A stretch of DNA of 38,341 nt, taken from positions 1 to 38,341 of the IMG/VR virus record IMGVR_UViG_3300035682_000085, one strand, 5' to 3'. Both the position numbers and the translations under genes were made by a program. The notes below the pieces were generated by a model. That model saw only the letters and a program-made list of their open reading frames with translations. It did not search any database and was not told the origin of the DNA. Of this stretch, positions 10,053 through 38,341 are shown in pieces. The first letter of the stretch is position 1; every line of letters starts with the position of its first letter. Source of the DNA: a virus.

Positions 10053-11249
<1,197 letters not shown>

Positions 11250-11254
11250 GAGGA

Positions 11255-12118
11255 TCAGGCGTCTTCGACCCAGTGCGGCCCGTCGGCGGAGGTCCACTTC
11301 AGTGTCCAAGTGTCGTTGCCGGTCGGGAATGGCAGGAAGCTGGCGACCGAGGATACCGCGGCGACCGGGTCACACCCTGGACAATCGCAGCTCGAAGGCG
11401 TGGTCGGCACCTGCTCGACGACGATCATACCGGAACCGGCCAGCGTCTTGAAATTGCGGATCTCCGCGCCAGTCCCAGTCACTGCGATGGCTTCGATGCC
11501 GATCAGTTCCAGGGTCGCCGCCCGTTCGAGATGTCCCCGTTTCGAGTAGGCACGATCGGCTTCAGCGCGAACCTCCCACTGCGCCAGCTCGGCGTTCCAC
11601 ACTTGGCTGGAGTCTTCCTCGCCGCCCTTGATGCCGTGCAGGTTGCCCTTGTCGTCGGCAATGACTGAGTGGTAGAACGGAAGCGGAGCACCGAGGGCCG
11701 GACGGGCATTGATCCCGGTAGGCTTCCACCACTGGTGCCAGAGCGTCGCGATCTTGATCGGGACCGAGGCCACGATGAACGCATTGCCGTCCACGATGCG
11801 GATAAACCCGGAGCCGGTCAGCTTGGCGAGCTTCGAGCCGATGCGGCCCAAGAGCGTGACACCCTCGCCGTTCCGATCGTTGATCGGGTCGGTGAAGCCG
11901 TTGGGCAGCGTGTAGCCGCAGCTCGCCGACGACCGCAGCGCGTTGCTGTCGGCGCAGCGAGACGCGGGGCTGCCGGTGACACTCGCCGGGGTCGTGCCGA
12001 GGCACTCGTCCGTCGCGCAAAGCGTGGTGTCCGCGCAGGCTTGCGACAGCGCGGAAAGGGTCGGCAGCTCCGGGTTTACCGGAGCCACCGCTGCGGGCGT
12101 GGTGCAGTTGCAGCTCAT
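11255..12118 (-). CDS. Cysteine-rich virion protein, unknown
   Basis: 287 residues from ATG at 12118, ten bases after the preceding gene. The N-terminus is Cys-rich (MSCNCTTPA, then CADTTLCATDEC and CADSNALRSSASCGY). The middle is beta-rich with GSGFIRIVDGNAFIVAS and a Trp pair (LWHQWWKP). The C-terminal part has CDCPGCDP, and the protein ends with WTLKWTSADGPHWVEDA. There is no signal peptide and no enzyme motif. It lies between a large beta-rich protein and the N-terminal tail-protein part, so a head-tail or tail-surface role is likely. The CxC and CxxC motifs could bind metal or make disulfides. I do not recognise the family. Confidence 0.7.
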   Translation of the reverse strand: MSCNCTTPAAVAPVNPELPTLSALSQACADTTLCATDECLGTTPASVTGSPASRCADSNALRSSASCGYTLPNGFTDPINDRNGEGVTLLGRIGSKLAKLTGSGFIRIVDGNAFIVASVPIKIATLWHQWWKPTGINARPALGAPLPFYHSVIADDKGNLHGIKGGEEDSSQVWNAELAQWEVRAEADRAYSKRGHLERAATLELIGIEAIAVTGTGAEIRNFKTLAGSGMIVVEQVPTTPSSCDCPGCDPVAAVSSVASFLPFPTGNDTWTLKWTSADGPHWVEDA

Positions 12119-20584: not shown

Positions 20585-22639
20585 TCAGACGCGCTTCACT
20601 ATCCTTTTTTTGCCCAGACCGCGAGACGTAATTTCGTCCCACACGCTCCGGCCTCCGTTGGCCGACTTCTGGCCGACGACGCTCTGCCGGAACCCGCGCT
20701 TCAGGGCTACGCCGGTCAGCCCCATGAGAACGTCCCGGTGGTCCGGCGAGACCTGCTGCCAGCGGGCCTTGTATTCGCGCTTGCCCTCCGCGACATACTT
20801 GCGGTTGACCGTCTGGTAAAGGGTTCGCGAGAGCTGCGTGGTGGCTGTCTCGATGAAGCTGCCGCCGCGGACCTGCCGGGTGAGGAACAGGTCGGCGGAA
20901 AGGAACGCCAGCTCGGTGCAGCGGTTCTTGCAGCACTCGTCGGAGGTCTTCTTGATGTTCTGGATCATGTGCCCCTCCGGCCCTTGGTTGTAGTCGAAGG
21001 CGAGGCAGTTGAACCCCATGATCTTGTTGATCGAGCTGACGATGTCCGGACGCATCGAGAAGTCGTAGCCAAAGTTGGCAAACGGGACGTTGTTGGCAAG
21101 GCACAGCTCCCGGCACTGGATGGCGATCTGGTCCTCGTAACTGATCTCCGCGCCCGCGGTGTAGTCCGAGATGTCCATTCCGCAGGCTTTCATGCGATCC
21201 GGCCAATAGTTGTCGTCCCCAGGGAACCATGCCCCTTTGACCAGCTTCAGGGACCGGAAGTGCTCCTTGAACACGAAAAGCTCCTGAAGCTCCTGCTTGC
21301 CCTCGCCGTCGGTGACGTAGGCTTGCCCGATCTCGGCCCAGCCGAAGACCGCCTTGTCCCGGCCGCCGAACGCCGGGTCGCAGAATGCCACGCGACCGGT
21401 GACCCGGACCATGCTGAAAAACGTGTCCTTGTGCCGGGAGGCACTCAGCTTGGCGCGGGACAACACGGAGTTCGTCTCGTCGCCGCGGACGGGGAACGAT
21501 CGGACCTGCGAGTAGTAGTCCGGCGACTGCACGCCGTAGTCGTCGCGCATCCGCTGAAGGTTCTCCATCTTGAAGAGCTTCGGGTAGATGGTCCGATTGG
21601 CCAGCACGTTCGGGCTCCGGTGGCCATCGAAACGCAGCGTGATCGAGGATTTCGAGCTGTGCCACCACACGTCGAACTCGATGTCGAGGTCGTCGAACGA
21701 TGACGGGCCGCCGAACAGTCCGACCGGCTGGGTGAGCCGCCCGCCCATGTCCTCTTCGTCCTTGAAGTTCTGGGAGGTGATGGCAAAGAACTGGTCCTGC
21801 GAGACCAGATTGTTAAGCATGGTCTCGAACGATGGATTCTCGATTTCGTTGACCTCGTCCACGAGCAGGAGCATGACCCCTCGGGTCGGGTCCTTGCCGC
21901 GGCCCTTGGACCCCTTGAACTTGCCGACGTGCTTGACGTTCCGCAGGACGATCGTCCCGGCTTTCGGGATACCCGGCACGAGGTCGAGCTGCCGGTTGGC
22001 GTATTTCTTCCCCCATGGGAACAGCCACGTCGCGTCCTCGTAGCCCTTGCCGGTGTCGTTCGGGTGGTGCTCGCAGAGCTGATCCCACAGCTCCTCCACG
22101 TCGCCCCAGACCGTCGAATCGGCGGCGTTATCGAACGGGTTGGCGACGAAGACCGCCGAGTATTCGGGGTCGATAATCATGATTGCAAACGCGATGCGAA
22201 TCGCGCCTGCCGACTTCCCCGAGTTCTGGCTCCCGATCAGGTGCTGCAACTTCTTGTTCCCTCCGCCGATGCCCATGCAGAACAGCATGACTGCATCGGC
22301 CAAGGACGGCGTAATGTCGGTGTCCGGGAATGCCAGCTTGATGAGCGAGAGCATGTGCCGGAAGTAGGGCTTTCCCCACTTGCTCGTCCCGCCCCAGTTC
22401 GGCCGCTTGGCGTCGAACAGGATCTTCTTCTCGATGCCGATTCGGTGCTTCGCCAGCTCCTGCGGCGTCGCATCGATGGGCTCAGGCCCGCCGTATTCCG
22501 GCTCGTCGTAGTAGTCGTGGAAATCCAGCAGACGCATCGTGATGGCGTCCGCGTCCAACAAAGGGTCGGACCAGTTCAAAAGGTCGTGGTTGAGCACGAC
22601 CCCGGCGAACGGGTCCGACCTTGGAGCTGCTTCGATCAC
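20585..22639 (-). CDS. terL: Terminase large subunit
   Basis: 684 residues from GTG at 22639; GTGA overlaps the preceding stop. The ATPase domain has a Walker A-like GSQNSGKSAGA (136-146), a hydrophobic Walker B strand MLLLVDEVNEI (256-266) with Asp261-Glu262, and a coupling motif near FFAITSQN (284-291). The nuclease domain begins at VAFCDPAFGGRDKAVFGWAE (417-436), with Asp421 as a probable metal ligand. A late acidic site is in SPDHRDVLMGLTG near the C-terminus. This is the motor that packages DNA through the portal and cuts it into genome lengths. Its length is within the usual range for podovirus-type large subunits. Confidence 0.9.
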   Translation of the reverse strand: MIEAAPRSDPFAGVVLNHDLLNWSDPLLDADAITMRLLDFHDYYDEPEYGGPEPIDATPQELAKHRIGIEKKILFDAKRPNWGGTSKWGKPYFRHMLSLIKLAFPDTDITPSLADAVMLFCMGIGGGNKKLQHLIGSQNSGKSAGAIRIAFAIMIIDPEYSAVFVANPFDNAADSTVWGDVEELWDQLCEHHPNDTGKGYEDATWLFPWGKKYANRQLDLVPGIPKAGTIVLRNVKHVGKFKGSKGRGKDPTRGVMLLLVDEVNEIENPSFETMLNNLVSQDQFFAITSQNFKDEEDMGGRLTQPVGLFGGPSSFDDLDIEFDVWWHSSKSSITLRFDGHRSPNVLANRTIYPKLFKMENLQRMRDDYGVQSPDYYSQVRSFPVRGDETNSVLSRAKLSASRHKDTFFSMVRVTGRVAFCDPAFGGRDKAVFGWAEIGQAYVTDGEGKQELQELFVFKEHFRSLKLVKGAWFPGDDNYWPDRMKACGMDISDYTAGAEISYEDQIAIQCRELCLANNVPFANFGYDFSMRPDIVSSINKIMGFNCLAFDYNQGPEGHMIQNIKKTSDECCKNRCTELAFLSADLFLTRQVRGGSFIETATTQLSRTLYQTVNRKYVAEGKREYKARWQQVSPDHRDVLMGLTGVALKRGFRQSVVGQKSANGGRSVWDEITSRGLGKKRIVKRV

Positions 22640-31229: not shown

Positions 31230-31553
31230 TCAGGCATCGGCGTCTTTCGCCGCTTTCTTCTTGGCCACCTTCTTCTTGGGCTTGGGCTCGGGCTCATCGA
31301 GGTCGGACGGCGCGGTCGAGAAGTGTGGCTCGGATTTCATCTCGTCGAGCAGCTCCTGATACTCGTCCACCACGAGCAGCAGCGGCTTCTCCGGCGCGGG
31401 CGGCTCATCGAACACGAGGTCTTCCGTCGGGACGGTCACCGAGATCTCCTTGGCGGCTCCTTGAACCACGCAGGCCCGGACGCCACGATTAACCACCTCG
31501 ACCACCACGCCCGCTGCCAGGCCCATCTGTGCTGTCTTCAATGTTGCTTTCAT
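31230..31553 (-). CDS. Small protein with Lys-rich tail, unknown
   Basis: 107 residues from ATG at 31553, only 13 bases after the tmRNA 3' end. The N-terminal half is a small beta domain (KTAQMGLAAGVVVEVVNRGV, then KEISVTVPTEDLVFDE). The C-terminal third is acidic then strongly basic (DLDEPEPKPKKKVAKKKAAK). There is no motif for a known family. It could bind nucleic acid through the Lys-rich tail. The 5' side is A/T-rich and lacks a Shine-Dalgarno sequence. Confidence 0.65.
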   Translation of the reverse strand: MKATLKTAQMGLAAGVVVEVVNRGVRACVVQGAAKEISVTVPTEDLVFDEPPAPEKPLLLVVDEYQELLDEMKSEPHFSTAPSDLDEPEPKPKKKVAKKKAAKDADA

Positions 31554-31566
31554 GTTGTCAAAAATA

Positions 31567-31950
31567 GGTGGATGTGGAGGGAGTCGAACCCTCGTCCTGA
31601 ACCGCTACCACCACAGCTTCTACACGCTTGTCCGGGATGACGCCCGGCACCATAGGGCGACCGTTTCGGGTCACCTCCACCATTCGGCTATTGGCAGCGC
31701 CGACGCTGTTTGCTTGCCCGGTTTGTTTCCCTGCGCGGAGCGGGCGCTGCGCAGGGCGTGTTCCCTCAAACGAGCGCGAGATTGCTGAAGCGGGCGAGGA
31801 TCTCGTCAGCTTCAGCCAGGCTCGGCGCGTTGTCAGGGATCTGGTCATTGTTGCCAGTTGGTCTTTTGATCGGCTTTTTAGGAGGCCAACCGATCAACCT
31901 CCGCGTGCTACTGTAGTGGGTCGTGATCCAGTCGAAACCTTTACACACCC
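31567..31950 (-). ncRNA. ssrA: Phage-encoded tmRNA (one-piece)
   Basis: Rescues ribosomes from broken mRNA and tags the stalled protein. The 5' end GGGTGTG (31944-31950) pairs with CACATCC (31570-31576) in a 7-bp acceptor stem. Its third pair is G-U, the alanine identity element. GGTTTCGACTGG after the acceptor matches the tmRNA 5' signature. The T arm is GAGGG-TTCGACT-CCCTC (31577-31593). Helix P2 forms between 31911-31919 and 31608-31616, and between 31903-31908 and 31622-31627. Pseudoknot 1 is complete: 31898-31902 with 31881-31885, and 31890-31895 with 31868-31873. Two more pseudoknot-like folds lie at about 31690-31765, and a hairpin GGTGACC/GGTCGCC follows. The 3' CCA is only partly encoded (ACC then T). 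It is on the same strand as the phage genes and flanked by them. Confidence 0.9.
31766..31855 (-). other. tmRNA tag reading frame
   Basis: Starting at the likely resume codon GGC (31853-31855), 12 nt after pseudoknot 1, the frame encodes 29 residues: GNNDQIPDN at the start, an acidic middle (SLAEADEIL) and ARFSNLALV before TGA. Bacterial tags usually have about 8-20 residues and end in ALAA or a close variant. From memory, the mycobacteriophage Bxz1 tmRNA also has a long predicted tag ending ALV. The resume codon was placed by spacing and could be shifted by a codon. Confidence 0.65.
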
Positions 31951-32795
31951 GAAACTTCCGGGAGATCCCTAACCGGAACCGGGATGTCGGTCAACTTCCC
32001 CGTCTCCCGGTCCATCCAGGACTCGCAAAGGACGACCCACCCGTCGGGGTAGTTCAAGACGACCCCGTAGTCGGGAGCGGTTCGGCCGCTGCGGCACCAC
32101 CTCTGTCCCACGTAGACGAGATCCGGCTTGGCCGCCACCTCCGCCGGGGGCTCGGGTGGCGTGTTGCGGGCCAAGGTCTCGTTCTCGCTCTCCAACAACC
32201 GCACCCGGTTCCACATGGCGTGGTGATCGTCCTTCACCGCGGCGTTCTCTCGCACCAGCTCGCCGTTCTTGCAGACTTCCTTGTCATACCGCTCGCGCCA
32301 GGTCGTCACGTCCGCCAGTAGCTGCTCGATCCGCTTGGGCAACCGGTTCAAATGGGACTGAACCCCTGTCAGAACGTCAATTTCCATCGGGAGTCCGTCC
32401 GATCCGAGGACGCGATAGATGTCGTTTAGCACGTTGTAGCGGCACACATCGTAGTTGCCGTTGGTAACCAGCTTGCCTTGGAACGACTGGTTCTCGCGAC
32501 GAAGCCGGTCGTTCTCGGAGACCAGCTCATCCCAAGTCCGGTTGACCTCGTTGGCCATCCGCAGCCGCTCCAGCAACCGATCGAACTGGGGGCGATAGTC
32601 ATCATCCGCCGGAACCGGTAGCAGCTCGGCGATCCTTTTCTCCATCATCAAGCGGCGATCGACTTCTCCATTAAGGCTCTCGGATGCTCTCTTGAGGCGG
32701 GACTCCAGCTCCTTCTCGCGCTCGATGGCGCGGGCGGCGGTTTCCATCAGGTCGGCAGTTTGGCGCAGGTGCGCGGCGTGGTCATCGTGGTTCAT
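31941..32795 (-). CDS. Coiled-coil protein with small C-terminal domain, stop inside the tmRNA 5' end
   Basis: 284 residues from ATG at 32795, overlapping the first gene by ATGA. Residues ~5-200 are charged helix and coiled coil (AARAIEREKELESRLKRASE, ENDRLRRENQSFQGKLVTNG, RVRLLESENETLARN). The last ~60 residues form a compact domain (LVYVGQRWCRSGRTAPDYGV then YPDGWVVLCESWMDRETG). The final codons GGT GTG TAA lie in the acceptor stem of the tmRNA. If RNase P cuts at 31950, the gene loses its stop codon. No family is recognised. Confidence 0.75.
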   Translation of the reverse strand: MNHDDHAAHLRQTADLMETAARAIEREKELESRLKRASESLNGEVDRRLMMEKRIAELLPVPADDDYRPQFDRLLERLRMANEVNRTWDELVSENDRLRRENQSFQGKLVTNGNYDVCRYNVLNDIYRVLGSDGLPMEIDVLTGVQSHLNRLPKRIEQLLADVTTWRERYDKEVCKNGELVRENAAVKDDHHAMWNRVRLLESENETLARNTPPEPPAEVAAKPDLVYVGQRWCRSGRTAPDYGVVLNYPDGWVVLCESWMDRETGKLTDIPVPVRDLPEVSGV

Positions 32796-33061
32796 GGTCG
32801 GTTGTTTTGTCGGTGGACGACCGCGTCGTAGCGGCCTTGTTCTGCGTTATAGGCGTGGTCGTAGGCTTTGGCGGATGCCAACCACTCCTCGGCGGCGGCG
32901 ATGGCGGCATGTCGATTCCCGCGGCAGACCCCGTGCATGAAGGTTTCCACATTACCACTCGCGCTCCCCACAATCAGCAGCCCTTGGATGTTCGGGGCGA
33001 TGTCGAGGACCTCGTCGGCCTTGGCCGCGATTATGAGCTGGGTTTCTTCCGGGGTGAGCAT
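32792..33061 (-). CDS. First gene of the leftward operon, unknown
   Basis: 89 residues from ATG at 33061. Content: PEETQLIIAAKADEVLDIAP, IQGLLIVGSASGNVETFMHG, then AIAAAEEWLASAKAYDHAYN. It looks like a small alpha/beta domain. It starts about 15 bases after the -10 of the best promoter of the window, with no Shine-Dalgarno. The function is unknown; as the first gene after an early-type promoter, a regulatory or host-takeover role is possible. Confidence 0.7.
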   Translation of the reverse strand: MLTPEETQLIIAAKADEVLDIAPNIQGLLIVGSASGNVETFMHGVCRGNRHAAIAAAEEWLASAKAYDHAYNAEQGRYDAVVHRQNNRP

Positions 33062-33076
33062 GTGCTAGTTGGCGCG

Positions 33077-33104
33077 ATAATAGGGACGTTAATTGCTTCG
33101 TCAA
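33077..33104 (-). promoter_or_regulatory. Leftward sigma70-like promoter
   Basis: TTGACG (33099-33104), 16-nt spacer, TATTAT (33077-33082), then CG. The spacer contains GCAATTAAC (33088-33096). Transcription should begin near 33070, leaving a leader of only about 8-10 bases before the ATG at 33061. It would drive two small genes and the tmRNA. Repeats at 33124-33171 and 33201-33320 lie directly upstream. Confidence 0.7.
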
Positions 33105-33123
33105 TAGCGAAGATAACTGGGGG

Positions 33124-33171
33124 TTCCTTGATGCCCCCTATGGGGGGTTCCTTGATGCCCCCTATGGGGGT
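33124..33171 (+). repeat. Two tandem 24-bp repeats with dyad
   Basis: Two near-identical copies, 33124-33147 and 33148-33171. Each contains TTCCTTGATG followed by CCCCCTATGGGGG, a G/C dyad around TA. They end 20 bp upstream of the -35 of the leftward promoter, a usual place for an activator or repressor. A diverged third copy (CCTTGACGCCCCCATG) is at 33423-33450. Confidence 0.75.
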
Positions 33172-33200
33172 CGGATATTCGCTGAGATCGAATTTCCAGG

Positions 33201-33320
33201 CTCTCCGCCTATCAGCAGCGCGGATTCGGAGGTCGCCAGCTTCCCCGCTTATCTGTAGCGCGGATTTGGGGGTCGCCAGCTTCTCCGCCTATCTGTAGCG
33301 CGGATTTGGGGGTTTAGCGG
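33201..33320 (+). repeat. Three 40-bp tandem repeats (iteron-like)
   Basis: Copies 33201-33240, 33241-33280 and 33281-33320 keep an exact 40-bp period. The common core is CCGCYTATCTGTAGCGCGGA, a dyad in which TCCGC pairs with GCGGA, followed by TTTGGGGGTCGCCAGC in most copies. The period is not a multiple of three and no ORF fits, so this is not a protein repeat. Spaced repeats with dyads are typical of replication-initiator or regulator sites. There are no unique spacers, so it is not a CRISPR. Confidence 0.75.
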
Positions 33321-33559
33321 CTAGGAGCGAAAATGGTCTCAGTCTATCCCCACCGCTATCGGTCTCGGTCTCGCTGGCCAATCGCCTCGCCAAGCCCCCG
33401 CACCCCCTCGCCCCTCACTCCCGGGGGTCCCTTGACGCCCCCATGTCCCCCTCCCCCACCCTCCCAGTCCCAGAAAGCCCGCGCCGCTACCCTCCCGAAC
33501 CCTAGAAACCGTGCCCACGCGCCCGGCCGGAGCCGATGGACACACCGAAACGCGGAATT

Positions 33560-33842
33560 GCCGAGCCCGCGCCGCCAGCCTCCCGAGCTGCCGGAGCCCC
33601 GGCCGATCCGGTGAGCCGGAGCCCCGGCCGATCCGGTGAGCTGCCGGCCGGTGAGCTGCCGGCCGGTGAGCTGCCGGCCGATGGACGCGCCGGCCGATGG
33701 ACGCGCCGGCCGCCAGCCTCCCGAGCCGATGGACGCGCCGGCCGATGGACGCGCCGGCCGATGGACGCGCCGGCCGCCAGCCTCCCGAGCCGATGGACGC
33801 GCCGGCCGGTGAGCCGGTGAGCCGGTGAGCCCCGGCCGCTAC
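33560..33842 (+). repeat. GC-rich short-repeat patch
   Basis: Mosaic of short units: GCCGATGGACGCGCCG (16 bp, six or so copies between 33678 and 33810), GTGAGCTGCCGGCCG (15 bp, about three copies from 33635), GAGCCGGT (33807-33830) and CGCCAGCCTCCCGAG (three copies at about 33574, 33712 and 33775). Unit lengths of 15 and 16 bp mix reading frames, so it is probably non-coding. It lies directly after the stop of the HTH gene. Confidence 0.7.
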
Positions 33843-33844
33843 CC

Positions 33845-34546
33845 TCACACCTCATCATCCCCGACCAGCTCGACAAGCGGAGCCGGGACACGCTTGGCGA
33901 ATACGCCACCCGCCGACCCGCCGGAGCCGATGACCCGCGCCCCATCTGGCCCCGCCATCCCGGCCGCCTCCTCCGCCCTTAGTCGCAGCTTAGCGCGGCC
34001 GCTTGCCAGGGTTTTCTCGCGAGTCTCAGCCACGCTTTGCAGCGATTCAATACCCGCCATTTTAGCCCAGTGAGATTGAAGCTTGAGAAGGTGCAATTCC
34101 CCAGCTTTCCGACTTCCGTGAAGCCCGATAAATGATTGGACGAGCGAAAGCACCGCCTCCGCCGCTCCCGCGTCACTTTGCGATTTCGCGCACGCGTCCG
34201 CGATGCTCAAAAGCCGTTTTTCGAGGATAGGAAGTCGTTCTAATTCAACGATTTGCGCATCAATACATGAACGAATTTTCATGCAATCGGATTCATGCTT
34301 GGCCAGCGTTTCAGCGTTTAAGCGAAAAACTAGGCCGTTTTCGGCGCTATTTGCCGCCAATTTATCCGCCTCCGCCTCCCATGCCGCCAAATGCCGCCGG
34401 ATAGTCTCCACCCGGCACCCCGCCAGCTTCGCCAGCCGATCCACATTCAGGACACGCTGGCCATCGCCAGAGCCGAACAAATACAGCCGCCGCGCCTCCC
34501 GGACCTCCGGGGTTTTCCCGTGCCTTGTAATCTCACCTAAGGACAT
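33845..34546 (-). CDS. HTH DNA-binding protein; candidate terminase small subunit or replication/regulatory protein
   Basis: 233 residues from ATG at 34546 (MSLGEITRHGKTPEVREARR). Upstream open frame through a Gly/Val-rich shadow region is not credible. Residues 31-56 fit a helix-turn-helix: VLNVDRLAKLAGCRVETIRR, then HLAAWEAEADKL. A helical region follows (AQIVELERLPILEKRLLSIA) and then LHLLKLQSHWAKMAGIESLQ. The C-terminus is Gly/Pro-rich. HTH plus oligomerisation helices is the layout of terminase small subunits, but the gene is far from terL and next to repeat arrays, so an origin- or operator-binding role is just as likely. The codon use is less GC-rich than in neighbouring genes. Confidence 0.7.
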   Translation of the reverse strand: MSLGEITRHGKTPEVREARRLYLFGSGDGQRVLNVDRLAKLAGCRVETIRRHLAAWEAEADKLAANSAENGLVFRLNAETLAKHESDCMKIRSCIDAQIVELERLPILEKRLLSIADACAKSQSDAGAAEAVLSLVQSFIGLHGSRKAGELHLLKLQSHWAKMAGIESLQSVAETREKTLASGRAKLRLRAEEAAGMAGPDGARVIGSGGSAGGVFAKRVPAPLVELVGDDEV

Positions 34547-35350
34547 AGGCCCGCACCATGCCGCAACCGGCCGCCGATGACAAGCGCCCAGGACGAGCAC
34601 GACGCCACCGGCACCAGCACCAGCACCACCAGCACCACGCCACCACGCGACCACGCGACCAGGACGACCACGCCCGCCCGCCGTTCCCGCCCGCCCGGAT
34701 CTTCGCCAAAATCGAAAATCTCGAAACCGCCCGTTTTTATCCGCTGGCAGACGATGAAAGATAGTGCCAGAAGATTAGGCCAGTCGGAACCCGCTGAAAA
34801 TGAACCACTTGCACCAATCTCACCAGTTGAGTCGATCTTAGTGCCACCACTTAGTGCCAGGCTTTTCCCTATCTCAAAACATTGAAATTTCAACGACTTA
34901 CGACTTGCCAACCTCCAATTTTATATCTTCTGGCCTAATCTTACCCATTTGCGACTACTACACAGGGGGGTAAAAATATTCCGACCCATGATTTTTTTCT
35001 ACCCCCCGCCGGAGTTTTCGGAAAACCCGGCACGACGTGCCAGATATACAAATCGAATCCACAACCCCCTCATTCCCAACGCTTTACGTGCCCTTTGCAT
35101 AACTGGCTCACAACTGGCACGCAACTCCCCGCCCTCCGCCTCCCCGTCACAAGTGACTCATTTCCAGGCACTTGCAGATGGACTAATCTGCTGGCCATAT
35201 CTCTTATCAGATTCCAGCGAATAAAACCCCTCATTCGCTCAAAAAACATAAACCCGTAACCCGTTGAAAACCAAGTATGACACAATCAAATCGTTTCCCG
35301 CCGTCAAATTCACTTGCGTTTATCCGCTGAAATTCTACTTTCCCGCCACC
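34547..35350. other. Divergent intergenic region between the leftward and rightward genes
   Basis: About 800 bp without a credible gene. 34560-34720 is CAC/CCA-rich low complexity. From about 34735 it is AT-richer and full of short repeats: AGTGCCA three times (34763, 34840, 34853), an inverted pair AAGATTAGGCCAG (34771-34783) and its complement (34930-34942), and a dyad GGCACG-A-CGTGCC (35029-35041). These may be operators. A rightward promoter is likely near 35260-35340 (for example TTGCGT with TACTTT, 16-nt spacer), but no strong match was found. Confidence 0.5.
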
Positions 35351-35755
35351 ATGAACCGCAAACGCTACACCGCCGCCCGCGCCTCCGCCGCCCGCATTGC
35401 TACCGCCTCCGCCCTTGCCGGAGCCCTCACCCTCGCAGCCCTCGCATGGACGGCATGCGCCGCCGCCTCCGCCCGATGGACCGACGACGCCACCGCCAAG
35501 GCCGCCGCCGCCCTCATCCACGGCGAATCGTGCACCCTTGGAGGTATCCACCACGCCCCCCGCGCCGTCCGAGATGCAGTCTGGGACAAGTGGACTTCCC
35601 GCGCCGTCACCGCCCCACGCGACCGCAACCCGGCCGCCTCCGCCCGCGTGCTCGACTTCGCCCGAGGCTACGCCGACACCGTCGACGAGCGGGACCTAAT
35701 GGACGCCAGCCCCTCCGCCGTCCGCGCCGCGGTCGACTCCGGCCGCCTCGACTAA
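35351..35755 (+). CDS. Small unknown protein with N-terminal hydrophobic segment
   Basis: 134 residues from ATG at 35351 (MNRKRYTAARASAARIATAS), chosen because the leader CGCCACCATG resembles those of the next genes; the frame is open 29 codons further upstream with AT-rich, unlike codons. Residues ~15-35 are hydrophobic (ASALAGALTLAALAWTACAA), so it could be exported or membrane-anchored; the segment contains a Cys in TACAAA. The rest is Ala/Arg/Asp-rich (RAVRDAVWDKWTSRAV, ARVLDFARGYADTVDERDLM). First gene of the rightward arm. No family is recognised. Confidence 0.65.
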   Translation: MNRKRYTAARASAARIATASALAGALTLAALAWTACAAASARWTDDATAKAAAALIHGESCTLGGIHHAPRAVRDAVWDKWTSRAVTAPRDRNPAASARVLDFARGYADTVDERDLMDASPSAVRAAVDSGRLD

Positions 35756-35764
35756 TCCCCACCC

Positions 35765-35791
35765 GCGGCCGGAGTTCGACCCTCCGGCCGC
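35765..35791 (+). other. Intergenic hairpin with T-loop-like loop (copy 1)
   Basis: A 10-bp perfect stem (35765-35774 with 35782-35791) closes the 7-nt loop TTCGACC. The loop has the U-U-C-R-A order of a tRNA T loop. It lies between two rightward genes, 10 bases after a stop codon. There is no T tract, so it is not an ordinary terminator. A second copy is at 37187-37209. Confidence 0.6.
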
Positions 35792-35818
35792 CCCACCACC
35801 ACCACACACCCCGACACC

Positions 35819-36160
35819 ATGACCACCACCGACACCACGCCCGCCCGCCCGAAGACCTACACCAAGCAAACCCGCCCTTGGGGACTTTACGCCCGAAGTG
35901 GGCACCGCGCCCTTTGTTCCGATGGAGTAATCCGCGCCGTTGAGATGGCAGAAACCGCCGACACTTTCTTTTCAGTCCCCGCCCGCGCCCGCATTTCCGG
36001 CCGCTGGATTTCTGGCTACGTGACCACTGACGAACGCGAAAACGACGGAGCCCGAATTTACACTTTCCGCCACCACACCAACCAGACCCCACCGGCACCG
36101 CTCCCAGAATGGCCCGAGAGCTACACGCCCGAGCGGGCCGCTTTGCTTGCCCTTGCCTAG
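35819..36160 (+). CDS. Small unknown protein
   Basis: 113 residues from ATG at 35819, preceded by ACCCCGACACC. Beta-containing domain: RPWGLYARSGHRALCSDGVI, FFSVPARARISGRWISGYVT, DGARIYTFRHHTNQ, then a Pro-rich segment and a short helix (ERAALLALA). It may be a small single-domain protein such as a beta-barrel binder. It is followed after 32 bases by the next gene with the same leader. No family is recognised. Confidence 0.65.
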   Translation: MTTTDTTPARPKTYTKQTRPWGLYARSGHRALCSDGVIRAVEMAETADTFFSVPARARISGRWISGYVTTDERENDGARIYTFRHHTNQTPPAPLPEWPESYTPERAALLALA

Positions 36161-36192
36161 ACCAACCCACCACCAGAACCAACCCCGACACT

Positions 36193-37173
36193 ATGAACGC
36201 ACTCGAAATTTGCCACCAATTCGCCGCCGAGAACTACGGCCGCACAAGAACCCGCCAAGCCGGGAATGTCCGCGCCGAGGAGCACAGCCGCACGCTTTAC
36301 AGCTACGCGGTAGCCATCGCCCGCCACACTGGCAACCCCGCGTTGCCCGTGCTCATCACAAGCCGCACGTACAGCGCCACGACGAGCAGACACACCGCGC
36401 TTGCCCGCCGTGCCCTCCACCATCTCCGCCCGTTCGAGATTTACGACCCCGCCGCCGCCACCACATCCGCCCACGCCAATAACGTCCGCCGCATTTACGC
36501 CGACGCCCGCCACGCCCTGCGCACCGCCACCGAGACCCGACGCAAGCCCGAGACCCGCGCCGCCGCCCTTGCCAGCGCCTCCGCCCTCCATGCCCGCGCG
36601 GAAACCTACCGCGCAGCGTTCAAAGTTCCGCCGGCAGCACTGGACGCCGAGACCCGCGCCACGCGGGACACATGCCGCCGGATTGACCCCGGCCAGCTCG
36701 ACAAGGCCGCCGCCCTGATTACCCAGGCGACCGCAGCCGCCGACAAGCGCCGAGCCGCGGCCGAGGCGAAGCGCACCGCGGCCCAGCGTGCCGCCCTTGC
36801 CGAGCAGGAGGACCGCGACAAAACCCGCCGCGAGGAATGGCTTTCCGGAATCGGGACATACTACCCACGCGAGCATTACCGCGCCCCCGCCCGCCTCCGG
36901 GTAGTGGGAAACGCCGTTGAGACCAGCCACGGAGCCCGCGTGCACGTCCGCGCCGCCGCTCGACTATGGGAGATTGTAGAGGGAGCCCACCGCACAGGTT
37001 ACACATTCCGCCCCACGCGACGCCACCCAATCGGCCCCTACACGCTGGACGAGGTAAGCCCCCAAGGCGTCCGGATTGGCTGCCACGCTATCGCCTTCGA
37101 AGAAATACAGCGCATCCGCGACCAGGTGCTCGCCGCCGCCGCGATCCACACCGACGAGACCGCCGACGTCTAA
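36193..37173 (+). CDS. Ala/Arg-rich helical protein, unknown
   Basis: 326 residues from ATG at 36193 (MNALEICHQFAAENYGRTRT). The open frame extends 28 codons upstream into the previous gene, but the conserved leader AACCCCGACACT marks this start. The first ~110 residues contain EEHSRTLYSYAVAIARH and TSRTYSATTSRHTALARRAL. A long Ala/Arg/Glu helix follows (DKRRAAAEAKRTAAQRAALA). The C-terminal ~100 residues form an alpha/beta domain (GIGTYYPREHYRAPARLRVV then YTLDEVSPQGVRIGCHAIAF). The C-terminal part could be a nucleic-acid-binding module. The function is unknown. Confidence 0.65.
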   Translation: MNALEICHQFAAENYGRTRTRQAGNVRAEEHSRTLYSYAVAIARHTGNPALPVLITSRTYSATTSRHTALARRALHHLRPFEIYDPAAATTSAHANNVRRIYADARHALRTATETRRKPETRAAALASASALHARAETYRAAFKVPPAALDAETRATRDTCRRIDPGQLDKAAALITQATAAADKRRAAAEAKRTAAQRAALAEQEDRDKTRREEWLSGIGTYYPREHYRAPARLRVVGNAVETSHGARVHVRAAARLWEIVEGAHRTGYTFRPTRRHPIGPYTLDEVSPQGVRIGCHAIAFEEIQRIRDQVLAAAAIHTDETADV

Positions 37174-37186
37174 ACCCACAACCCAA

Positions 37187-37209
37187 GGCGGAGGTTCGAC
37201 CCCTCCGCC
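37187..37209 (+). other. Intergenic hairpin with T-loop-like loop (copy 2)
   Basis: An 8-bp perfect stem (37187-37194 with 37202-37209) closes the loop TTCGACC, identical to copy 1 at 35765-35791. It lies 14 bases after a stop codon and 21 bases before the next start. Confidence 0.6.
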
Positions 37210-37230
37210 GCCCTTCCCACCTTGCGACCC

Positions 37231-38022
37231 ATGAAGACCACACCGAAACTTGCCGCCATTGCACGCGCCCTACGCAACCGCACCAGCAAAGCCGCCACGC
37301 TCGCCCGGTGGCACCGCCTCCGCCCCGCCGCCCAGCTCGCCAACCTCCGGAGCCTCCCGAGCTACGCAGGGGAGACCCTTGCCGAGCGTCGCGCATACCG
37401 CCTCCGGGTATACCACTCCGGGCCGGAGCTTTCCGCCCCCGACGCGGAAACCCCGATCCTATGGACCAATACAGACAGCCCCGAGATCCTCGACGCATAC
37501 CCCGGCCGGGAATTTTTGAAACATCGCGGATGGCACACCGACGACGACGAACGCGAAACCATAGAAGCGTACGCCGCGATTCTCGCCGACTTCCCCGGCC
37601 TTATTTTTGAAGCCGTCCGCGAATCGTGCTCAGGGGGAATCCGCGTGGACCTTTCGACCGCTTCCGCTATCGACTACAGCGAAGCAGATAGCGACTACAA
37701 CGCCAGCGAAGCCCGCGAGGATGCAGCCCGCGAAACCGTCCGGGCAGCGGACTCCACCGCCGAACGCGACGCCGAGAGAGAGCGAGACTATCAGGACACC
37801 GAATGGCACCGCGCCAGCCTTGAGGAAGCCCGCGCCGACCTTGCCGACAACCGCGCCAAGTTCCGCCGCCTCCGCTGCGAACTCCGAAAACTTTGCACGC
37901 CAGCCATGCGCGAAATTTACCCCGCCGCGGCCGACGCTATCCGCGCCCAGGTTAAAGCGATCCTCCGTCGCCGCACTGAAACGCTCGACACCATCGCCGA
38001 GCACAAGCAAGCCCTTTCCTAA
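37231..38022 (+). CDS. Unknown protein, Ala/Arg/Glu-rich
   Basis: 263 residues from ATG at 37231 (MKTTPKLAAIARALRNRTSK); TTG three codons upstream is an alternative. N-terminal basic helix, then a segment typical of small phage early proteins: YTSGPELSAPDAETPILWTN-like strands (about 70-90) and LDAYPGREFLKHRGWHTDDD. A conserved-looking ADFPGLIFEAVRESCSGGIR follows. The C-terminal half is charged coiled coil (AERDAERERDYQDTEWHRAS then RAKFRRLRCELRKLC). No family is recognised. It is separated from the preceding gene by the second T-loop-like hairpin. Confidence 0.65.
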   Translation: MKTTPKLAAIARALRNRTSKAATLARWHRLRPAAQLANLRSLPSYAGETLAERRAYRLRVYHSGPELSAPDAETPILWTNTDSPEILDAYPGREFLKHRGWHTDDDERETIEAYAAILADFPGLIFEAVRESCSGGIRVDLSTASAIDYSEADSDYNASEAREDAARETVRAADSTAERDAERERDYQDTEWHRASLEEARADLADNRAKFRRLRCELRKLCTPAMREIYPAAADAIRAQVKAILRRRTETLDTIAEHKQALS

Positions 38023-38032
38023 CCCCGACACC

Positions 38033-38341
38033 ATGACCACCACCTACACCAACGACACCACCGCCCGCGCCCTCATCGACTCCGCCGCCGCCGCCCTTGG
38101 ATGGACGACGGCAGGCCCCCGCCGAGCCTATCAGGACGACCCGGAGCCCGGACCCATGCCCGCGACCGTCACCGACCCCGCGACCGGCCGAGCCTTGCAC
38201 GTCCGCCGCATCAGCTACCCCGCCGCGCAGGCGGGCCGCTTGGCCATCTCGCCAACCTACCCCGCCGACCCCATGACCGGCCGCACCACGCTCCCGCGCA
38301 CCGTGCACCCCGCCGCAACCGTTGCAGGCGACACCGCGCCC
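38033..38341 (+). CDS. Unknown protein, runs off the right edge
   Basis: 103 residues visible from ATG at 38033 (MTTTYTNDTTARALIDSAAA), preceded by AACCCCGACACC, the same leader as two earlier genes. The rest is Pro/Thr/Arg-rich: GWTTAGPRRAYQDDPEPGP, TDPATGRALHVRRISYPA, RLAISPTYPADPMTGR. No stop codon is reached. The family is not recognised. Confidence 0.6.
   Translation, partial: MTTTYTNDTTARALIDSAAAALGWTTAGPRRAYQDDPEPGPMPATVTDPATGRALHVRRISYPAAQAGRLAISPTYPADPMTGRTTLPRTVHPAATVAGDTAP

Follow-up and report, generated by a model that had tools for sequence, protein, structure and literature searches.

Complete tmRNA genes have been listed in phage genomes since the mycobacteriophages (PMC4131195). 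In a survey from 2021 they were present in 2.3% of 18,146 phage genomes, and it was proposed there that the phage RNA helps to keep the hijacked translation machinery in working order (PMC9004378). Described examples include mycobacteriophages Bxz1 and Wildcat, Bacillus phage G, several Streptomyces phages and the phage Melnitz. The tags encoded by the Streptomyces phage tmRNAs are short (ANSKFAFALAA, ANSNVASAYALAA), and among tmRNAs at large, of which the tmRNA database holds 97,179 sequences, 10 aa is the commonest tag length (2025 database paper, PMC11915505). The tag of Escherichia coli is made of two parts, an inner AANDENY that binds the adaptor SspB and a terminal ALAA that binds ClpX (PMC8512704).

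Here we describe a tmRNA gene in a virus record of 38,341 nucleotides (IMG/VR IMGVR_UViG_3300035682_000085, positions 1 to 38,341), which was analysed over its full length and is referred to below as the window. Like the phage genes named above it is complete and lies in a phage genome, although it is a one-piece gene whereas the tmRNA of Melnitz has the two-piece form. Phage tmRNAs as such are already known, and the gene is a new member of this known kind. The novelty lies in the tag, whose conserved module makes the window gene a new variant among known phage tmRNAs; we found no description of this shared module in the open-access literature searched, and a report elsewhere is possible. An earlier sequence-only reading of the window had described phage tmRNAs as rare and known in a few large phages; the survey figure shows that they are not limited to these.

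The tmRNA gene and its RNA structure

The only RNA gene that ARAGORN found in the window is a one-piece tmRNA (Table 1), at the very coordinates that the sequence-only reading had proposed. That reading had named ARAGORN and the Rfam tmRNA models as the way to check its proposal, and both were positive: family RF00023 matches the locus over the full model (31950-31566, model positions 1-374) with 127.4 bits and an E value of 1.1e-49, against a gathering score of 47 bits, and is the only Rfam family with a match in the window above its own gathering score. We regard it as practically certain that the locus is a real tmRNA and, from its conserved stems (below) and by analogy with described tmRNAs, as highly likely that it functions in trans-translation.

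Table 1. Positions of the tmRNA gene, its parts and neighbouring features in the window.
Feature	Position	Strand	Basis or remark
One-piece tmRNA gene (mature RNA)	31567..31950	-	ARAGORN; Rfam RF00023
Acceptor stem, 5' strand, GGGTGTG (G3 of the alanine G-U pair)	31944..31950	-	sequence
Acceptor stem, 3' strand, CACATCC (U70)	31570..31576	-	sequence
T arm, GAGGG-TTCGACT-CCCTC	31577..31593	-	sequence
PK1 with TTG insertion, GGAGG-TTG-ATCGG-TTGGCCTCC-TAAAAA-GCCGATC	31868..31902	-	Rfam alignment; pattern scan
Tag reading frame, GNNDQIPDNAPSLAEADEILARFSNLALV + stop	31766..31855	-	ARAGORN coding part 96-185; codon tests
Conserved tag module, APSLAEADEILARF (class A)	31787..31828	-	same motif in 59 viral contigs, all tmRNA genes
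Upstream gene, 284 aa, coiled-coil-like	31941..32795	-	stop codon at tmRNA bases 8-10
Downstream gene, 107 aa, no assigned function	31230..31553	-	start 13 bases past tmRNA
Segment missing from relatives G001-G003	31554..31950	-	clean empty site, six bases instead
Probable large terminase (Walker A GSQNSGKS, Walker B LLLVDE, nuclease CDPAFGGRD)	20585..22639	-	sequence motifs

The structural elements named in the sequence-only reading were largely recovered. The acceptor stem forms 7/7 pairs and includes the alanine-type G3-U70 pair, the T stem forms 5/5 pairs, and both the sequence and the Rfam alignment give a T arm without an anticodon arm. The P2 helix and pseudoknot 1 (PK1) are well aligned in the Rfam match, while the at least two further pseudoknots that had been claimed are plausible but weakly resolved, since the alignment posteriors for the later ones are low (about 0.3-0.6). 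At the 3' end the discriminator A (31569) is followed by CCT, and CCA is not encoded.

Complete stems are a common property of these RNAs. The tmRNAs of the window, of three related viral contigs (G004, G005 and G007, see below) and of three further loci (L146, L124 and L133) each show 7/7 acceptor pairs, 5/5 T stem pairs and G3-U70; since the stems vary in sequence yet pair fully in all seven, they bear the signature of structural selection on the RNA. On the other side of the balance, CCA is also unencoded in the three related contigs, and the discriminator of G004 is a C. ARAGORN overlooks the tmRNA in G004, G005, L160 and L168 and cuts the tag short in L161, L162 and L165, so that phage genes of this sort are undercounted.

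Genomic setting, relatives and likely host

The tmRNA lies within a cluster of phage genes and on their strand, as had been noted from the sequence; the record is classed as viral and the gene is shared with relatives. A search for sigma-70-like promoters between 31200 and 32300 was negative. Because genes on the same strand flank the tmRNA on both sides, and the upstream one ends at tmRNA bases 8-10, co-transcription of the tmRNA with its neighbours followed by processing appears likely.

The description of the genome as podovirus-type could not be confirmed, as no portal, terminase or capsid family match was obtained among the window proteins and the two AlphaFold models made for phage typing were poor (pLDDT 46.7 and 38.4). 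A search with the probable large terminase (Table 1) retrieved seven related viral contigs (G001-G007), and a terminase profile search returned no further viral contigs and none in bacterial genomes. Elsewhere in the window, a 418-aa protein contains a stretch of over 80 residues, most of them serine (10053-11309, minus strand), and a methyltransferase-domain protein and a glycosyltransferase family 25 protein are encoded among the phage genes (8019-10089, minus strand). From about 33000 to 38341 the GC skew is strongly negative and genes probably lie on the plus strand, which suggests divergent early and late arms.

Among the relatives, G004, G005 and G007 have tmRNA genes. That of G004 is syntenic with the window gene and 79% identical to it over 369 bases, close to the 76-80% of its flanks, which fits joint inheritance with them. 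The tmRNAs of G005 and G007 lie at other sites, beside early-type genes (AAA_24, VRR_NUC). The terminases of G001, G002 and G003 are 98-99% identical to that of the window, yet these contigs have no tmRNA in their available sequence and show an empty site instead (Table 1); the sequence of G006 stops before the region that holds the tmRNA in its near-twin G007. Since the more distant G004 has the gene, loss in G001-G003 would be the simplest reading, with transfer as the alternative. With three close relatives lacking it and a more distant one carrying it, the tmRNA is a dispensable cargo gene.

Different HNH_3 endonuclease genes are found directly downstream of the tmRNA in G004 (L011, 1935-2462, plus strand) and G007 (L009, 1929-2384, plus strand). 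The one in G004 is flanked by copies of TTTTTG, a sequence that is single in the window, as if it had been inserted between the tmRNA and the next gene. We considered a mobile tmRNA-HNH cassette and rejected it, because the HNH gene is absent in the window and from most other phage tmRNAs.

The TTG insertion in PK1 bears on the host. A pattern for this PK1, in a form whose A-run is longer (G007 fits it, the window itself does not), matched 77 bacterial contigs, mostly titled Verrucomicrobiales, Akkermansiaceae or other Verrucomicrobiota. The ARAGORN tags of 75 bacterial tmRNAs with the PK1 mark, nearly all from Verrucomicrobiota, have 9-11 residues, and 60 of them read ADSNELALAA. The window tmRNA shares with this Verrucomicrobiota ssrA (RF00023) the full-length covariance match, G3-U70, the T arm, the TTG insertion and the place of the resume codon, and differs from it in the longer tag with a conserved insert and in CCA, which most of the sampled host genes encode.

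A bacterial genome, that of the cultured Luteolibacter pohnpeiensis KCTC 22041, has in addition to its own tmRNA a second one in a phage-like region (L146, 1219-1585, minus strand; L156), with terminase-like and recombinase genes near. Overlooked by ARAGORN, this second tmRNA resembles the window gene in the PK1 mark, G3-U70 and a long tag (GKQNASFSRSRVVSDDLVLSN, 21 aa), but the tag has neither the APSL module nor a hydrophobic end, and CCA is encoded. Together with the PK1 mark and the tag of G007 (ADSNE-FAPSLEEANAILSFHGFVER-ELAAA), which resembles the Verrucomicrobiota host tag with about 20 residues inserted, this phage-type tmRNA makes a Verrucomicrobiota host likely for the phage of the window. 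The strain, with a host-type and a phage-type tmRNA, is a possible laboratory system.

The tag and its conserved module

The tag frame, which the sequence-only reading overlooked while naming the other parts of the RNA, proved the most informative part of the window tmRNA. With 29 residues the tag is roughly three times as long as usual, and it ends in the hydrophobic LALV. Its inner stretch belongs to what we call class A, in which the extended tag is defined by a core EAD[EA]IL with APS[LV]x before it and G-[WYF]-x-E after the helix. The window has the core with APS[LV]x in front; G-[WYF]-x-E is absent from the window and G004, while a G followed by an aromatic residue is present in G007 and in the remaining listed class A tags, and the tag of G005 is without the module. 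Some tags thus lack the module, and others have it in part. The stretch APSLAEADEILAxFG reads like a capped helix, with S-x-x-E at its start and G at its end. A PDB search with the tag gave no match, nor did tblastn of tag peptides against isolated phages; a mycobacteriophage tag intended as the positive control gave none either, so that the tblastn result is uninformative.

In order to examine the specificity of the module, 2.9 million viral contigs were scanned with DNA patterns derived from the core peptide EAD[EA]ILAxFG alone. The pattern matched 59 viral contigs, some of them near-copies and thus not independent, and tmRNA 5' or 3' sequence adjoins the motif in 59/59; an order-reversed control pattern of like composition gave one match in all. 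With the stricter pattern APSLxEA..IL...F, 14 viral contigs were matched and the motif is in a tag-like frame in each of the 14. Of these, G004 was known beforehand; the remaining 13 class A loci were submitted to Rfam, which supports 11, and the other two are cut at the locus end. The window tag is more similar to those of L161, L164 and L182 than any of 20,000 shuffles, and 55 of 20,000 shuffles equal its similarity to the tag of G007.

A second motif, AEYIFNN (class B), is unrelated to class A and matched 101 viral contigs. Among the 80 matches listed, 78 have adjoining tmRNA sequence and one, cut at the locus end, has a tag-like frame, while one (L253) is not a tmRNA, so that 79/80 are consistent with a tag. 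The similarity between the two classes is not significant, 1,421 of 20,000 shuffles being equally good; we therefore rejected the idea that they form one module and handled them separately.

The module was found in 0/388 Verrucomicrobiota and 0/399 Pseudomonadota genomes (787 bacterial genomes from two phyla). It is found almost only in phage tmRNA tags, and such a near-exclusive conserved stretch suggests that the phages have a use of their own for the tag.

Conservation extends beyond the class A positions fixed by the search pattern, to A, P, S, [LV], an aromatic residue and E, with varying codons: the serine is kept in 46 of the 47 distinct tags, encoded by five codons from both serine boxes, and leucine is encoded by six. 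The pN/pS ratio in the tag frame is 0.33 for class A (47 tags, pattern-fixed positions left out) and 0.21 for class B (62 tags), versus 0.93-1.78 in the other two frames. The tag frame is thus under purifying selection, and these codon patterns indicate that the module is very probably selected as a peptide. In a quick tree of tmRNA bodies, with the tag excluded, class A tags appear in a main clade, L164, L182, the window together with G004, and G007; they may therefore sit in several places, though the backbone of the tree is weak, and a single origin is the alternative.

It might be argued that this is an ordinary phage tmRNA with a neutral long tag, whose length drifts and of which only the last residues matter. 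Tag length does vary: besides the commonest tags of 10 aa others occur, down to 2 aa (PMC11915505), and phage tags sampled by PK1 alone, to which those of the window and L146 were added, comprise 24 distinct tags of 8 to 35 aa with a median of 26, in a set that differs from the PK1-chosen bacterial one in taxonomy and partly in pattern. The close relatives of the window, moreover, do without the gene altogether. Neutral drift, however, fits poorly with a module that is conserved among tmRNAs with otherwise divergent bodies, with the silent codon changes, including those at the almost invariant serine, and with a pN/pS that is low in the tag frame only. We consider a neutral tag unlikely.

Possible partners of the module

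The reading that we favour, and hold to be probable, is that the phage tmRNA is functional and that its tag places a helical docking element, specific to phages, ahead of the degradation signal. The RNA would be transcribed with its neighbours and excised by host tRNA-processing enzymes, with CCA added post-transcriptionally. We infer from tmRNA biology that the host alanyl-tRNA synthetase would charge it and that, during infection, host SmpB would bring it to ribosomes that had stopped on broken mRNAs; these would be released, and the unfinished chain would receive the 29-residue tag, in which LALV would act as the usual hydrophobic degradation signal. As the sequence-only reading put forward, the RNA may rescue ribosomes that stall when the phage brings about mRNA cleavage, which is a reasonable proposal.

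A search for SmpB genes was negative in 33 phage records and positive in 10 of 14 control genomes, so the window tmRNA presumably uses the SmpB of the host. An SspB-like adaptor was likewise found in none of 30 phage records (the control being positive in E. coli and Caulobacter), which makes a phage-encoded SspB unlikely as the partner of the module. Given these results, a phage-encoded SmpB or SspB was rejected as a partner. Clp-protease family proteins occur in 10 of the 33 phage records, none of them in the group of the window, and match PHROG head maturation proteases. In two class B phages (L314 and L315) such proteins, of 184-209 aa, adjoin the ribonucleotide reductase small subunit gene and are not obviously among head genes. 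With the head-protease matches on one side and these two genes on the other, a phage ClpP would be at most a candidate for a dedicated tag protease.

Within the favoured reading, the inserted stretch would fold into a short helix and serve as the docking site for a partner, probably one of the host's protease adaptors or unfoldases, so that the phage could influence what becomes of the tagged chains. The docking reading is drawn from the E. coli tag, in which an inner adaptor element precedes a terminal hydrophobic signal; in SspB-ClpXP recognition, too, the tags are two-part, with an adaptor site and a terminal protease signal (PMC8512704). The differences are that the module is unlike AANDENY and that no SspB was found in these phages, and adaptor binding is hypothetical here; docking on an adaptor or unfoldase is, in our estimate, possible but somewhat short of probable. 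More tentatively still, phages may have recast trans-translation as a delivery system that adds phage-specific modules, of at least two unrelated kinds, to each rescued chain, so that the modules, beyond ribosome rescue alone, would be what the phage needs. If true, the modules would either pass the chains on to a protease of the phage's choice or serve as effector peptides that are produced only when ribosomes stall. Hosts already own a tmRNA, and the conserved module makes the reason for the phage copies testable; the tag peptide, e.g. APSLAEADEILAKFGWAEE, provides a specific lead to the partner.

An effector role could also be envisaged without docking for degradation, the module being a peptide that inhibits or redirects a host factor such as a protease or an mRNA-cutting defence nuclease. 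The near-exclusive presence of the motif in phage tags, and its place after the resume codon and ahead of a degradation end that can still be recognised, agree with this. Most tags, however, keep a hydrophobic end such as LAA, which implies rapid destruction, and there is no known target; we rate an effector peptide as unlikely. Less credible is a decoy, in which the phage tmRNA would take SmpB or alanine charging away from host tmRNA and thereby shut off trans-translation in the host. Strong inhibition of tmRNA, perhaps by titration of SmpB, was reported for a molecule resembling the tRNA-like fragment of phage DS6A (PMC4131195), but DS6A has little beyond the tRNA-like domain, whereas the window keeps the whole mRNA-like part with a peptide under selection, and a decoy therefore seems improbable. 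As to a host ssrA carried by chance, through imprecise prophage excision or as an integration-site copy, genetic elements often integrate at ssrA (PMC11915505), but the position inside a phage cluster, the same place in G004 (79%), the different tag and the grouping, though weakly supported, with phage rather than sampled host tmRNAs make it very improbable, and the integration-site copy was rejected.

Long tags were also seen in other phage tmRNAs. Six further ones (L118, L119, L121, L136, L137 and L144) lie in tRNA clusters and have 26-residue tags of the type GNRIVNAVRGIANRVFAPQGELALAA. Finally, Synechococcus phage S-SSM7 (GU071098; L308, 1441-1792) has a two-piece tmRNA, with the 31-residue tag AKSSDTAANNIVAFSRILTREFARTDELVTA, and this RNA gene overlaps the annotated hypothetical protein SSSM7_025, probably a misannotation.
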